This document shows, one piece after another, positions 12,200 through 16,704 of a stretch of 64,000 nucleotides of DNA. The position numbers and the translations under genes were made by a program. The notes below the pieces were generated by a model. It was not told the origin of the DNA. It made no database searches and saw nothing but the letters and a program-made list of their open reading frames with translations. Location of the stretch: assembly GCA_016871155.1 (NCBI GenBank), contig VFZO01000004.1:1-64000 (forward strand), given 5' to 3'. Origin of the DNA: Acidobacteriota bacterium (lineage in GTDB: Bacteria; Acidobacteriota; Terriglobia; Bryobacterales; Bryobacteraceae). Position 1 is the stretch's first letter. Each line of letters opens with the position of its first letter.

Positions 12200-12880
12200 A
12201 TGAAACCGCTTATAGCCGCGCTCGCGCTTACCGTTTCCGCTCAATCCTGGAAGCCGCTGTTTAACGGCAAGACACTGGATGGATGGGAGGTGGTTGGCGA
12301 CGGCCAATGGAGCGTGCTGGCCGATAGAACGATTCTGGCGCAGGCCACCTCCGGCGGCAAGACGCCATTCGGCGCGTGGCCGGTTGCGCTCCCCGAGAAG
12401 CAGTACGTGGACTGGCGCCAGACTCAGTCCTGGCTCTACACGAAGGCCGAGTATGGTGAATTCGATCTCCGGCTGGAGTACCGGTCGGCAAAGGGCGGGA
12501 ATAGCGGCGTGTCGATCCGCGACTCCACGCGCGGCAAGCATGCGATCGCACCCACGCCGGACTACACCAAGACGCCCGCGCATTGGGGCTACGAGATTCA
12601 GATTCTCAACGGAGTGAAGACGAAGTATCCGAGCGGCAGCATCTATCTGTTCGCTCCGGCCACGATGGGGTTCGAGAAAGAGAACGATTGGAACCAGTTG
12701 GAGATTCAGTCGCGCAACGACAAGATCACGGTGAAGATGAATGGCCGCGCGGTCGCGTCGCACGCGGGCGATCCGGCGCGGCCGAAGTCCGGTCCGATCG
12801 GCCTGCAACTGCACGACAGGTTTAGCCTGATGATGTTTCGCAACATCCAGATTCGCGAGCTACATTCCGCTCGCCGCTAG
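12200..12880 (+). CDS. DUF1080 (3-keto-disaccharide hydrolase-like) secreted protein
   Basis: A 226-residue exported protein with a short signal peptide (MKPLIAALALTVSAQ) and the concanavalin-like DUF1080 fold. Marker motifs are FNGKTLDGWE near the start, EFDLRLEYR, GGNSGVSIR in the middle and LQLHD/FRNIQIREL at the end. Some family members hydrolyse 3-keto-glycosides. It begins 6 bases after the transhydrogenase gene and its end overlaps the convergent oxidoreductase gene by 21 bases. Because the neighbouring minus-strand gene is a Gfo/Idh/MocA oxidoreductase, a 3-keto-sugar pathway is possible; this is inference. Confidence 0.88.
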   Translation: MKPLIAALALTVSAQSWKPLFNGKTLDGWEVVGDGQWSVLADRTILAQATSGGKTPFGAWPVALPEKQYVDWRQTQSWLYTKAEYGEFDLRLEYRSAKGGNSGVSIRDSTRGKHAIAPTPDYTKTPAHWGYEIQILNGVKTKYPSGSIYLFAPATMGFEKENDWNQLEIQSRNDKITVKMNGRAVASHAGDPARPKSGPIGLQLHDRFSLMMFRNIQIRELHSARR

Positions 12881-13843
12881 GACGGCGCTTTGCACGTTTA
12901 ACTCCTCTTCAAACGTAGCTGGCAGTTTCTTGCCGGTGCGAATGGCGGCGGCCAAGTCGATGAAATCGTCGACGTAGCGTTTGTAGGAGGGCATGGGAAC
13001 GGTCTGTTTTCCAGCGGCGTATGGGCCGGCGGCCTTGCCGAGTTCGACGAAGACGGCGGGCGGTTCGATTGGATTGACGACGATTGCGCCGTTCGTACCG
13101 TGCACTTCGAATGCGCGATAGCGACCGGAGTTTGGCTGGAGGTTCGAGCCGTGGACGATGGCCATCGCGCCGTCGAATTCCAGAATCGCGGCGGTATTGT
13201 CGGCCAGGCCGTCCTTTAGTCCGTCGCTTCGTAGAACCGGTGTGACCTTGGAAGGTTTACCGAGCAGGCGCACCACGGGGTCGATCACGTGACAGCCGAG
13301 TTCGAACATTACGCCGCCTTTGAAGGCCGCCCACTCGGGGCGGCGTTTGGGATCGAGCTGATTACCGATGGCCGCGCGCACCAGGTAGACCTTGCCCAAC
13401 CAGCCTTTCCGCGCGGCTTCGAGCGCAAGGTTGATGCCGGGATGGTAGCGCCACATGTAGCCAAGCTGCAGAAGCAGCCGTTTGCGCTTTGCGGTTTCGA
13501 CCACGCGAACGAAGTCCACCATGTTGGCCGCCGGAATCTTTTCGAGGTGCAGGTGTTTGCCGGCCTCCAGTACAGCGAGCGCGTCGCGCGCGTGATCCTT
13601 GTTCTCCGACTCGACGGCAACAACTTCGATTTCGGGATGGCGCAGCAGTTCCTCCCGTGTCAGCGAGGGCCAGGCGCTTTTCCCTTCGGTTACGCCGATC
13701 AGCTTGAACGCGGGATTGGCAAGCACGGTCTCCACCTTCGCCGGCCCGTGGGAGTGCGAGGTGCCGAGAAAGCCAATGCCAATGGGCTTCGCCTGGGCGT
13801 GGAGAAGCGCGGGTGCGAGGAATAGAGTGCGACGTGCGAACAT
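12860..13843 (-). CDS. Gfo/Idh/MocA family oxidoreductase
   Basis: A 327-residue NAD(P)-dependent oxidoreductase of the glucose-fructose oxidoreductase/inositol dehydrogenase family. The Rossmann start IGIGFLGTSHSHGPAKV comes after a short exported-looking leader (MFARRTLFLAPALLHAQ), as is common in acidobacterial members. The conserved EKP motif is altered to LEKIPAANM, and the C-terminal sheet domain contains FKGGVMFELGCHVIDPVVRLLGKP. The substrate is probably a sugar or cyclitol derivative. It is divergent from the sigma factor gene with overlapping upstream regions and convergent with the DUF1080 gene. A second, broken member of the family lies at 36071. Confidence 0.92.
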   Translation of the reverse strand: MFARRTLFLAPALLHAQAKPIGIGFLGTSHSHGPAKVETVLANPAFKLIGVTEGKSAWPSLTREELLRHPEIEVVAVESENKDHARDALAVLEAGKHLHLEKIPAANMVDFVRVVETAKRKRLLLQLGYMWRYHPGINLALEAARKGWLGKVYLVRAAIGNQLDPKRRPEWAAFKGGVMFELGCHVIDPVVRLLGKPSKVTPVLRSDGLKDGLADNTAAILEFDGAMAIVHGSNLQPNSGRYRAFEVHGTNGAIVVNPIEPPAVFVELGKAAGPYAAGKQTVPMPSYKRYVDDFIDLAAAIRTGKKLPATFEEELNVQSAVLAASGM

Positions 13844-13901
13844 GCGAAATATCGTGTCACAAAACGGCGCCGGCCGGCGTTTCTACTTTGTGCAAGCGGC
13901 G

Positions 13902-14396
13902 ATGGAACAAACGGCTGACCTGGAGAGCGTGTTCCGCGCTCATTATGCGCGCGTGGTGTCGTTGATCGGGCGCATTGTCCGGGATCCGGCCGGAGCCGAG
14001 GACATCGCGGTGGATGTCTTTCTGAAATGGGATACTTCGATCGGCGCGGAGGCAGCGCTCAGATGGCTGCTGCGGTCCGCGGCGCGCGCGGCGATCGACG
14101 AGTTGCGCCGGCGCAATAGGCGGCAACGCTACGAATCCGTACTCGGCCTGTTTCGCCGGGATCCGCCGACGCCTCTGGATACGGTGCTGGCGAACGATGA
14201 GGTAGCGCGTGTCCGCATAGTGCTGCTGGCGCTGCCGCCGCGGCAAGCCGAAATGCTGCTGCTGCGAGCGGATGGGCTGAGTTACAGCGAATTGGCGGCG
14301 GTGCTGGGGTCGCGGGCATCGTCGATTGGAACTCTGTTGGCGCGGGCGAACGAACGATTTCGAAAGGAGTACGAGAAGCGTTATGGACTGGGTTGA
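13902..14396 (+). CDS. ECF-type RNA polymerase sigma factor
   Basis: A 164-residue sigma-70 family factor of extracytoplasmic-function size. Region 2 (about residues 8-75) binds core polymerase and the -10 element (FRAHYARVVSLIGRIVRDPAGAEDIAVDVF). Region 4 (about 105-160) has the helix-turn-helix LPPRQAEMLLLRADGLSYSELAAVLG. The frame is open far upstream; I chose ATG 13902, which matches the normal family start, while GTG 13890 and ATG 13842 are alternatives. The last 14 bases overlap the thioredoxin-like gene, so the two are translationally coupled, the usual position for a cognate anti-sigma factor. Confidence 0.9.
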   Translation: MEQTADLESVFRAHYARVVSLIGRIVRDPAGAEDIAVDVFLKWDTSIGAEAALRWLLRSAARAAIDELRRRNRRQRYESVLGLFRRDPPTPLDTVLANDEVARVRIVLLALPPRQAEMLLLRADGLSYSELAAVLGSRASSIGTLLARANERFRKEYEKRYGLG

Positions 14397-14988
14397 AGAA
14401 AAACTAGCTGCGCTGAAACCGGCGGGATATGCCGATTCGCGGCGGGCGTGGGAACGGCTGCGCGCGCGGCAGCGAAGCCGGAGACAGCGGCTGATTGTGG
14501 CGGGCGGAGCCTTTACAGCAATAGCCGCGGCGTCTGCATTTCCACCGTCGCGCGCGATGGCCAAACGGTGCGTGGAGGCGTGCGGAGAGATATTGGGCCT
14601 GCGCGGGGACACGCCGCTGCGGAACCTTCAATCGGTGGACCTGCGCGCGTTGCGCGGGCAGGTGGTCCTGCTGAACTTCTGGGCCACGTGGTGCCCGCCA
14701 TGCGAGGCGGAGATTCCTTGGTTCGTGGAGATGCAGAAAGAGATGGGAGAGCGGGGCTTGACGGTGGTGGGTGTGTGTATGGACGAGAACGCAGAGGCGC
14801 TGCCGGCGTTTCTGCGGCGCAAGGGCGTGAACTACCGTGTGGTCCACGACAACCGGTTCGCGGGCGTGCAGGCGCTGCCGGCGACGTTCCTGCTGGATCG
14901 CGCCGGCAACGTTGCGTTTGTCCACGAGGGGCTGGTGGCGAAGGAGACCTATTTGCGCGAGGTCAACGAACGGCCAGTCGCGAAATAA
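14383..14988 (+). CDS. Membrane-anchored TlpA-type thioredoxin, possible redox anti-sigma factor
   Basis: A 201-residue protein with an unusual order of parts: a charged cytoplasmic N-terminal stretch (residues 1-35, MDWVEEKLAALKPAGYADSR at the start), one membrane segment (about 37-54), a short linker with cysteines 63 and 67, then a TlpA/ResA thioredoxin domain with the active site WCPPC (cysteines 104 and 107). ATG 14383 is well placed after AAGGAG; the longer frame start at 14326 lies deep in the sigma gene. The N-terminus resembles the cytoplasmic part of small anti-sigma factors that follow ECF genes, so a role as a periplasmic redox sensor controlling the sigma factor is attractive but unproven. 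The 3' end overlaps the convergent symporter gene by 26 bases. Confidence 0.85.
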   Translation: MDWVEEKLAALKPAGYADSRRAWERLRARQRSRRQRLIVAGGAFTAIAAASAFPPSRAMAKRCVEACGEILGLRGDTPLRNLQSVDLRALRGQVVLLNFWATWCPPCEAEIPWFVEMQKEMGERGLTVVGVCMDENAEALPAFLRRKGVNYRVVHDNRFAGVQALPATFLLDRAGNVAFVHEGLVAKETYLREVNERPVAK

Positions 14989-16588
14989 CAACACCGGTGG
15001 CGATGACGACCAGGCAGCCGGCGACGTTGTACCAAAGGAACGACGTAGCGCCGGTGAAGTGGAGGGTGAAGATGACGGCTTCCCCGGCGAGAACTCCCCA
15101 GAATGCGCCAGCCGCGCCCACGCGCGGGAAGTACATGGCGAGAGCGAAGACGCCAAGGATGCCGCCGTAGAACAGGGAGCCGAGCAGGTTAACGGCTTCG
15201 ACAAGCGAACCCATGTTCTTCGCAAAGCGCGCCGTGACCACCGCGTAAACGCCCCAGAACGCGGTGGCAAGACGCGAGACGAGCAGGTACCGTGCATCAG
15301 CGGCCTCCGTGTTGATCAGGCGTTTATAGATATCGATGACGGTGACAGTGGCAAGTGAGTTGATTTCACCGGAGATAGTCGACATAGCCGCGGCGAGAAT
15401 CGCGGCGATGATGAGGCCGACGATGCCCTCCGGCAGGTAGTTCGTGACGAAGTGAAGGAAGACGTAGTTCGTATCGTTGGACTTCGTCAGTGCGGCGGCC
15501 TGCTTGCGGGTTTCGTCGAGATCGGCCTGCGCTTTTTGAAACTCCTCCTTCGCGCCGCCGCCAGCCGCCAATCGCCGCGCCGCCGATTGGCGGGACTGGA
15601 ACGCGGCGTCGAATTTCTCCCGCAGCGCCGGGTACTCCGGCATGCGTGTGAGCTTCGCCATATCCTCTCGCTGGAAAAGCAGAGGCGGCTGAACAAACGT
15701 GAAGAACGCGAAAACGATGGCGCCCGTGAGCAGGATGAGAAACTGCATAGGAATCTTGGCCACGGCGTTAAATAAGAGGCTGAGACGGCTTTGCGCGACG
15801 GAACTGCCGGTCAGGTAGCGTTGTACCTGGCTCTGATCACAGCCGAAGTAGGCCAGCGCGAGAAACATTCCGCCAAAGAGGCCGCTCCAAAGGTTGTACC
15901 GGTCGCCCCAGGAGAAGTTCGTCGTCACCGGATTCAGTTTGCCCGCCGCCCCCGCGACAGTGAGTGCGGCACCGAAGCCGATGTTATCGGGGAGGAGATA
16001 GACGGCCATGACGAGCGACGCGGCGAGGCCGGCCATCATGATCAACATTTGCTGAAAGTCGGTCCAGGTGACCGCCTTGACGCCGCCAAGGGCCGTATAG
16101 GCGACTACGATGACGCCCATCAAAACGGTGGTCCAATCATCGGGCCAGCCGAGTATGACGGTCAGGACGATCGCCGGCGCCGAGAGCGCCAGGCCGACGG
16201 CGAGGCCGCGCTGAATCAGGAAAATGATGCTGACAAGCGTCCGCGTGCGAGAGTCGAAACGCTTCTCCAAATACTCGTAGGCCGTGTAGACGTTCGCCTT
16301 GTGGAACACGGGAACGGCGGTGACGGAGAGAATGACCATGGCCAGGGGCAAGCCGAAGTAAAACTGCACGAACCGCATGCCATCGACATAGCCCTGGCCG
16401 GTCGTAGAGATGAACGTGATGGCGGAGGCCTGCGTGGCCATGATCGAAAGGGCCATGGCGTACCAGGGCATTGTCCTGCCGGCGCGCAAATAGGCGTCGG
16501 TGGTATCGCTGCCGCGCGACCTCCACAAGCCGTAGGCGACGATGCCCACGACCGAGAGAATCATAACCATCCAATCGAGAAATCTCAC
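14963..16588 (-). CDS. Sodium:solute symporter (SSS family)
   Basis: A 541-residue inner-membrane transporter with about 13 membrane segments and the LeuT-like SSS fold, expected to move an organic solute with sodium. Recognisable parts are DAYLRAGRTMPWYAMALSIM at the N-terminus, ITFISTTGQGY, the GGVKAVTWTDFQQ loop and AAAMSTISGEINSLATV late in the protein. A charged, coiled-coil-like insertion lies around residues 320-370. I chose GTG 16588, which overlaps the stop of the upstream 39-residue gene as GTGA; TTG 16594 is the longest alternative. The partner genes point to a sugar or amino-sugar derivative as solute, but this is not shown by the sequence. Confidence 0.95.
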   Translation of the reverse strand: MRFLDWMVMILSVVGIVAYGLWRSRGSDTTDAYLRAGRTMPWYAMALSIMATQASAITFISTTGQGYVDGMRFVQFYFGLPLAMVILSVTAVPVFHKANVYTAYEYLEKRFDSRTRTLVSIIFLIQRGLAVGLALSAPAIVLTVILGWPDDWTTVLMGVIVVAYTALGGVKAVTWTDFQQMLIMMAGLAASLVMAVYLLPDNIGFGAALTVAGAAGKLNPVTTNFSWGDRYNLWSGLFGGMFLALAYFGCDQSQVQRYLTGSSVAQSRLSLLFNAVAKIPMQFLILLTGAIVFAFFTFVQPPLLFQREDMAKLTRMPEYPALREKFDAAFQSRQSAARRLAAGGGAKEEFQKAQADLDETRKQAAALTKSNDTNYVFLHFVTNYLPEGIVGLIIAAILAAAMSTISGEINSLATVTVIDIYKRLINTEAADARYLLVSRLATAFWGVYAVVTARFAKNMGSLVEAVNLLGSLFYGGILGVFALAMYFPRVGAAGAFWGVLAGEAVIFTLHFTGATSFLWYNVAGCLVVIATGVVISRLAVR

Positions 16589-16704
16589 CGCCAAGCCTTC
16601 GTGAACGCGTGGAAGCCAGCGATCAATACAGCCAGATAAAGAATTACGGCCGCGTAGAGACGATTCCAGGTACCGAAGAACGGCGGCGGCTCTTCGCGAT
16701 TCAT
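16585..16704 (-). CDS. 39-residue single-pass membrane protein upstream of symporter
   Basis: A short gene encoding MNREEPPPFFGTWNRLYAAV and 19 further residues. A polar proline-rich start is followed by one hydrophobic helix (LYAAVILYLAVLIAGFHAF) and a basic end. Both edges are 4-base overlaps: its ATG overlaps the stop of the PIG-L gene as ATGA, and its stop overlaps the symporter GTG as GTGA. Such tight packing argues for real translation. Several SSS transporters have small partner proteins encoded just upstream (for example the DUF997 and DUF3311 types); this one is shorter and I do not recognise its family. A role as a transporter subunit is inferred. Confidence 0.75.
   Translation of the reverse strand: MNREEPPPFFGTWNRLYAAVILYLAVLIAGFHAFTKAWR

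Follow-up and report, generated by a model that had tools for sequence, protein, structure and literature searches.

In RsgI proteins, one common cytoplasmic domain is joined to different outer domains. The RsgI proteins of Clostridium thermocellum have been described as one family of membrane anti-sigma factors sensing different substrates (PMC12203970). CnrY, which belongs to the class II system CnrH-CnrY-CnrX, embraces sigma2 and sigma4 with two helices (PMC7406223, PMC4598750) and relies on a separate sensor with a periplasmic domain, CnrX (PMC4598750); anti-sigma domains of under 50 residues have been set aside as possible class II domains (PMC7406223). In RsrA, the zinc anti-sigma domain itself forms a disulfide, and a separate thioredoxin helps to reset RsrA (PMC4598750). 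ECF41 sigma factors carry a large C-terminal extension, and their published promoter is TGTCACA-n16-CGTC (PMC3426412).

Here we analyze a locus in a window (the whole stretch of DNA under study) of 64,000 nucleotides from an Acidobacteriota bacterium of the Bryobacteraceae (positions 1 to 64,000 of contig VFZO01000004.1, assembly GCA_016871155.1). According to the original prediction, made from the sequence of the window, an ECF sigma factor gene has a 14-base overlap with a gene for a membrane thioredoxin, termed the partner below, which sits where the anti-sigma factor should be. The overlap is exact: the sigma ORF as first read (ATG 13902 to the stop at 14396, 164 aa) and the co-directional partner ORF (ATG 14383 to the stop at 14988, 201 aa) share the 14 bases 14383-14396. 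Translation, Pfam and hydropathy also recovered every predicted part of the partner, namely a basic segment, one membrane helix, a C-x3-C pair and a WCPPC thioredoxin domain. The features of the locus are as follows.

13855..13881, plus strand, ECF-type promoter-like site TGTCACAA-N15-CGTT, conserved upstream of homologues
13890..14396, plus strand, ECF sigma factor gene with probable GTG start, 168 aa (Pfam, conserved GTG)
14383..14988, plus strand, partner gene (translation, Pfam, AF2 model, Foldseek)
14383..14490, plus strand, N-terminal segment of the partner, residues 1-36, proposed minimal anti-sigma domain (HMM profile, model helices)
14491..14547, plus strand, membrane helix, about residues 37-55 (hydropathy scan, model)
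14569..14583, plus strand, juxtamembrane C63-x3-C67 pair (sequence; low-confidence modelled helix 57-70)
14614..14967, plus strand, ResA-like thioredoxin domain, residues 78-195 (alignment, Foldseek)
14692-14703, plus strand, active site C104-P-P-C107 (alignment)
12860-13843, minus strand, GFO/IDH/MocA oxidoreductase gene, neighbour of the pair (Pfam)
14963-16594, minus strand, sodium:solute symporter gene, neighbour of the pair (Pfam)

Since both neighbours are on the minus strand, the sigma/partner pair stands alone. A separate anti-sigma gene serving this sigma factor would have spoken against the prediction; at the locus itself none adjoins the pair, as Pfam assigns the two neighbours to an oxidoreductase and a symporter. 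The symporter gene converges on the pair and, read from its stop, shares 26 bases with the 3' end of the partner gene. In homologous loci, the position of the partner gene directly behind the sigma gene is conserved.

The sigma protein matches the Pfam families Sigma70_r2 (residues 11-74, 31.9 bits) and Sigma70_r4_2 (residues 108-149, 33.7 bits), both over the cut-off, and consists in the 164-aa reading of regions 2 and 4 only, with no long insert or extension. While its identification as an ECF sigma factor was therefore confirmed, the predicted start at ATG 13902 lies four codons inside the probable gene. The evidence for this comes from the promoter-like site. The exact word pair CACAA-N15-CGTT is present upstream of 30 of 49 homologous sigma genes, compared to at most 4 for any word pair in five shuffled sets. 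With spacers of 14-16 allowed, the best TGTCACAA-N15-CGTT site scored at least 10/12 in 43 of the 49 upstream regions (1.1% of 980 mononucleotide shuffles) and at least 11/12 in 37 of them (0.1% of the shuffles). These counts are for 49 of 61 rows with non-zinc partners (see below), leaving out L065, L076, L077, L078, L081, L085, L086, L087, L090, L125, L143 and L160. Among 45 homologues with a site, 43 have an in-frame GTG 8 or 9 nt behind the -10 element, and in the window GTG 13890 is in frame, 8 nt past the site. Because this arrangement is kept, the sigma gene probably begins at GTG 13890 rather than at ATG 13902, and would then extend over 13890-14396 and encode 168 aa. The sigma transcript is probably leaderless, and the conserved site is probably the autoregulated promoter of the sigma/partner pair.

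The published ECF41 promoter is nearly the same as this motif. However, ECF41 sigma factors have their C-terminal extension after region 4, whereas the window sigma factor, at 164-168 aa, ends shortly past region 4. Membership in ECF41 was ruled out due to the missing extension.

The outer domain of the partner fits a ResA/TlpA thioredoxin in fold, W-C-x-x-C motif, cis-Pro and N-terminal membrane anchor. Pfam reports Redoxin, a Redoxin/AhpC-TSA domain, at residues 80-183 (70.9 bits), and no Pfam match reaches into the first 79 residues. The basic residues 1-36 are followed by the best 19-residue window of a hydropathy scan, which starts at residue 37 (mean 1.56), then by C63-V-E-A-C67 and, in the outer domain, by W103-C104-P-P-C107. 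An AF2 model based on 26 family rows (mean pLDDT 84) comprises a helix 2-9, a helix 19-52 running from the segment through the membrane stretch, a helix 57-70 and a thioredoxin fold, with pLDDT values of 72-85 over residues 1-40 and of 57-60 over residues 51-80, which include the Cys pair. Foldseek with this model returned ResA-type structures first (4nmu, E 4.3e-14), and a sequence comparison put thioredoxin-family and ResA proteins at the top among solved structures. W103, C104, C107 and P166, the last of which we take to be the cis-Pro of the thioredoxin active site, do not vary across the 26 ResA-type rows of the alignment. The charge of the segment and the outer thioredoxin suggest that the N-terminus is cytoplasmic and the thioredoxin on the outer side. 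The partner shares outer-domain fold and active site with the ResA, TlpA and CcmG membrane thioredoxins, but no counterpart of its N-terminal segment turned up in 28 other ResA-like loci.

The pair was then compared with its homologues. With the sigma protein as query, 90 of 150 genomes of the order gave matches at E<=1e-10. With the partner as query, the thioredoxin part matched in 150/150 genomes, and among the matches listed only those of the window itself and of genome G057 had alignments starting within the first ten residues. From 70 loci that were read, L089 had no sigma gene, L099 ran off its end, 17 loci were dropped for a weaker sigma match (E above 1e-19; L091-L098, L100-L108), with L090, also weaker, kept, and no partner could be read at L059 and L072. 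A further 88 loci were read, with L148, L158, L159 and L161 giving no pair. The 133 rows were condensed to 105 distinct ones, and exclusion of L162, L163, L165 and L166 as not of the family left 101; among these, L190 received its zinc-type label manually, and the truncated L145 was kept separate.

Partner types were labelled by short motifs, and in seven examples by Pfam. The 101 distinct pairs comprise 40 zinc-finger (ZAS-like) partners, whose motif is close to the N-terminus, 30 ResA-type, 7 DsbA-type and 23 C-type partners, the C-type being a third kind of outer domain that lacks a thioredoxin motif, and the truncated one. Among the seven examples, Pfam found zf-HC2 over the cut-off in three zinc-type partners, Thioredoxin_4 in the DsbA-type and AhpC-TSA in the ResA-type partner, and nothing over the cut-off in two C-type partners. 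A model of the C-type head (pLDDT 71.5) had no fold match in the PDB at E<=0.001; L118:2973-3881 is an example of a C-type partner without a Pfam match over the cut-off or a confident fold match. The protein at L080 has a zinc-finger N-terminus and, by eye, a C-type-like outer domain, with a weak DUF4367 match (E 0.19). At L073, a protein with a zinc-finger motif behind a related sigma gene also has a TonB C-terminal domain (Pfam), and L088 is alike by eye; each looks like another head joined to an anti-sigma domain.

By title, 53 of 58 named loci in a contig scan are of Acidobacteria type, including Bryobacterales and Vicinamibacterales, and the rest are L135 and four weak strays. L135, in a metagenome-assembled genome record titled Bordetella parapertussis, has the same pair as G003, a genome of the same family, so that the title is apparently a mislabel. 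A search of the phylum with the sigma protein gave matches in 61 of 396 genomes at E<=1e-20, and 25 of 30 fetched loci were of the zinc type.

The N-terminal segment is common to partners with different outer domains. Its consensus in ResA-type, DsbA-type and most C-type partners is about WVxERLAxLxPxxxWxPDxxRALARL. A segment profile was built from 25 non-ResA partners (7 DsbA-type and 18 C-type; 18 of the 25 rows are without any thioredoxin motif) and searched against 7,714 six-frame ORFs from the fetched loci and the window. Using 52-residue N-termini, the profile found the window partner at E 9.9e-8 and 29/30 ResA-type partners at E<=0.011, with the first unrelated ORF at E 0.81. When cut before the membrane helix, it still found the window partner at E 1.7e-6 and 27/30 ResA-type partners at E<=0.015, with the first unrelated ORF at E 0.39. 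The ResA-type partner at L169 was missed (absent at E<=10 with the 52-residue profile, E 7.7 with the cut profile), and L053 and L149 had E-values of 0.11 and 0.3 with the cut profile. At L053 (G141:C126:2198-2323) the segment is present but broken by a TAG codon, which may reflect either a pseudogene or a sequence error. Deep C-type members scored weakly or not at all with the 52-residue profile (L085 0.017, L081 0.031, L090 2.8; L065 and L087 absent).

Chance similarity of the segment was ruled out, because a profile without any ResA-type row finds it and no unrelated ORF falls below E 0.39. A role as signal anchor only was also ruled out, since 28 other ResA-like loci (L011-L038) lack the segment (best E of any ORF 4.9 with the segment profiles) and confident matches follow a sigma gene.

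For the latter point, a whole-genome profile of 22 segment rows was searched against the 150 genomes, giving 48 matches at E<=0.01. For all 29 matches at E<=4.8e-4, a co-directional sigma gene immediately precedes the segment (coordinates compared by eye), and the other 19, with E-values of 5.5e-4 and weaker, are not by any sigma gene found with the sigma query. As the profile was built from sigma-linked genes, some of them the very genes that it then matched, the test counts mainly through the lack of good matches elsewhere. The predicted conservation of the segment in homologues, and its pairing with this ECF family, is thus borne out by the survey (29/29 best whole-genome matches after a sigma ortholog).

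These data bear on the view that the partner is a membrane-tethered thiol-disulfide oxidoreductase, co-transcribed as a target of the sigma factor, with the segment serving for anchoring or for docking to another protein. The invariant thioredoxin active site (26/26 rows) and the abundance of ResA-like proteins (150/150 genomes) would suit such an effector, as would a promoter-like site before a TlpA-like lipoprotein gene in another genome (see below). Yet the segment is common to partners without a ResA-type thioredoxin, including the 18 of 25 profile rows that have no thioredoxin motif, its confident matches in 150 genomes occur only after this sigma gene, and zinc-finger anti-sigma genes are in the same place in related lineages. 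We regard this explanation as quite unlikely.

The type of partner follows the phylogeny of the sigma factors. In a quick tree, partner type needs 6 changes, compared to a mean of 50.4 after shuffling (0/200 shuffles as low), and in a careful tree of the 60 non-zinc rows and 6 chosen from the 40 zinc rows it needs 4 (shuffled mean 30.0). In the quick tree, many forks of which are weakly supported, most zinc-type partners are in surrounding lineages, and the non-zinc partners do not form one clade, because five deep C-type rows are joined by four zinc-type ones. A clade of 50 rows (SH-aLRT 99) contains 30 ResA-type, 7 DsbA-type and 12 C-type partners and the truncated one. Sigma factor and segment thus share their descent, whereas the head changes. 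The segment occupies the position of the zinc anti-sigma domain in related sigma lineages. Different types can be found within one genome: G048 has a ResA-type (L044), a DsbA-type (L069) and a zinc-type pair (L074), and G074 has a ResA-type (L055) and a C-type pair (L070).

The partner is therefore probably the membrane-bound anti-sigma factor dedicated to this ECF sigma factor, given the homology of the segment across heads, the strict pairing, the zinc-finger anti-sigma genes in the same position and the conserved promoter-like site. The original prediction is supported by comparison in these respects (position, segment homology, pairing), and as a whole reading partly so.

FecR-type regulators have the same gene order and membrane topology as the sigma/partner pair. 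The partner could accordingly be a positive regulator needed for sigma activity, with FecR-like pro-sigma behaviour, or have both roles, and the sign of control in our reading is one that we infer. We consider a positive role very unlikely, however, in view of the zinc-finger anti-sigma genes that occupy the same position in related lineages.

As an anti-sigma domain, the segment would not be of the zinc type. Class I or zinc anti-sigma domains (ZAS, zf-HC2) were ruled out, as the window's 36-residue segment has no zf-HC2 match, no HxxxCxxC motif and no H or C residue at all. Descent from a zinc anti-sigma domain that has lost its zinc is unsupported by any Pfam match; the segment of the window member matches 0 Pfam families. 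The class II layout, a short membrane-proximal segment made of two helices, is seen in the AF2 single-chain model. With this short and presumably cytoplasmic segment, and in being paired with an ECF sigma factor, the partner resembles CnrY, but the likeness is in layout only, as the segment profile found no match among PDB sequences (best E 0.14). CnrY also depends on the separate sensor CnrX, whereas the partner has an outer thioredoxin on the same chain. With RsgI, the partner family shares a modular membrane plan, as far as the general domain plan of RsgI is concerned. RsgI heads are described as substrate sensors, while the heads of the partner family are thiol-disulfide folds or the C-type domain, which has no assignment. 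RsrA and other redox-sensitive zinc anti-sigma factors control sigma factors by thiol chemistry, as is proposed here for the partner. However, RsrA is described as forming the disulfide in its zinc domain and as having a separate thioredoxin, whereas the window segment is cysteine-free and the thioredoxin, presumably on the outer side, is built in.

The juxtamembrane Cys pair is relevant for the question of what the head does. It is present in 21/30 ResA-type, 5/7 DsbA-type (6 by eye) and 0/22 C-type partners, a count that omits L145 and L111; the pair of L086, seen by eye, was cut through by the script. The association with head type has a Fisher p of 3.5e-8 if descent is ignored, but the tree provides only 1-2 independent contrasts, and the link between Cys pair and thioredoxin-type heads is for this reason only suggestive. 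The pair is missing in a six-row ResA-type clade (L112, L131, L143, L146, L157, L160), three members of which are titled Vicinamibacterales, and in the group of L053, L056 and L058. Since 9/30 ResA-type partners are without it, the architecture does not require the pair. A built-in redox sensor in the partner, as originally suggested, is plausible.

The genome of the window encodes one DsbD_TM-type protein, a possible electron source for the partner, and has four matches to M50 (site-2-type) proteases. A disulfide relay and regulated proteolysis are therefore both possible. Sigma binding, the direction of control, membrane topology, the redox signal and its route across the membrane are all inferred in the following scheme. 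The 36-residue cytoplasmic segment with its two short helices would tether the sigma factor to the membrane, which the chain would cross as a single helix, and the outer part would be one of several interchangeable heads, in the window a ResA-type thioredoxin with a conserved active site, preceded by the C-x3-C pair. The CPPC site would read the state of the outer thiol/disulfide pool and relay it to the juxtamembrane C-x3-C pair, which would change the membrane helix or how readily that helix is proteolysed, such that the sigma factor is released. Once free, the sigma factor would use TGTCACAA-N15-CGTT to transcribe the operon that encodes it and probably few further genes.

A variant of this scheme, whose likelihood overlaps with that of the scheme itself, keeps the anti-sigma factor and replaces the signal: the outer domain would be a folded plug or a protease substrate in regulated intramembrane proteolysis, and thiol chemistry would not be involved. 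The C-type heads, which occur in the same place in close relatives and have neither a thioredoxin nor a Cys pair, agree with this variant, as do the M50 protease matches in the genome. On the other hand, the invariance of W103, C104, C107 and P166 in the ResA-type rows argues that activity is kept, and many partners with thioredoxin heads carry the Cys pair beside the membrane, while it is missing from the C-type ones. The variant is in our view somewhat unlikely.

The promoter motif was also used to look for a regulon. In the genome of the window, the exact 12-base site occurs twice, once at the pair. The second occurrence, at C332:2185, is probably due to chance, because it is followed by no convincing gene start and is near the 3' end of an ORF on the opposite strand; by eye, this ORF resembles glycerol kinase. 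Sites with one mismatch number 17, versus 6 for a reversed-pattern control, and no clear target was seen among those inspected in this genome. In 38 other genomes there are 23 exact sites, 12 at sigma genes and 11 elsewhere, versus 5 for the reversed pattern. Separated by origin, 14 related genomes with the sigma factor have 15 exact sites (nine at sigma genes, six elsewhere; reversed pattern 1), and 24 further genomes, 12 of them without a strong match to the window sigma factor, have 8 (three at sigma genes, five elsewhere; reversed pattern 4). Given the control counts of 1 and 4, we treat the 11 sites outside sigma loci as leads and not as a regulon. One of them is the site already mentioned, in G032, 38 bases before the start of the TlpA-like lipoprotein gene (L218), and sites in G122 and G093 are right before genes of the TIGR03435 family (L237, L238); these three genes are possible regulon members. 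A search of the window's own genome turned up no TIGR03435 protein, although the control of that search was silent too. As so few exact sites lie apart from sigma genes, hardly more than in the control, regulon content lends the redox role little support.

In the open full-text literature, judged by titles and the openings of abstracts, no anti-sigma factor with a thioredoxin domain was found among the matches listed, the main ECF re-classification being outside this scope. The available part of the review PMC8103513 mentions thioredoxin three times, in no case with regard to an anti-sigma domain. A thioredoxin linked to AlgU is a separate regulon member and not an anti-sigma factor, according to the available text of PMC12830090, and what was available of the Solibacter genome paper contains nothing on the sigma/partner system. 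A minimal anti-sigma-like segment with interchangeable heads is thus apparently undescribed, even though an ECF group name or description for the window sigma factor may already exist.

In its widest form, our proposal is that the segment represents a new minimal anti-sigma domain family, linked through a single membrane helix to a variety of outer heads, working thiol-disulfide enzymes among them, and that outer thioredoxin flux, rather than a dedicated ligand, switches transcription. We put this forward tentatively, at somewhat less than even chances. With its ResA-type, DsbA-type, C-type and zinc-finger members, all linked to homologous sigma factors, the family forms a natural domain-swap series in which sigma binding and signal input should be separable experimentally, and TGTCACAA-N15-CGTT is a promoter sequence ready for use in a reporter. 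For the little-studied Acidobacteriota, the analysis offers a first likely function for an unnamed protein segment. If the proposal is true, an extracytoplasmic thiol enzyme would report its own redox state to RNA polymerase via one polypeptide.
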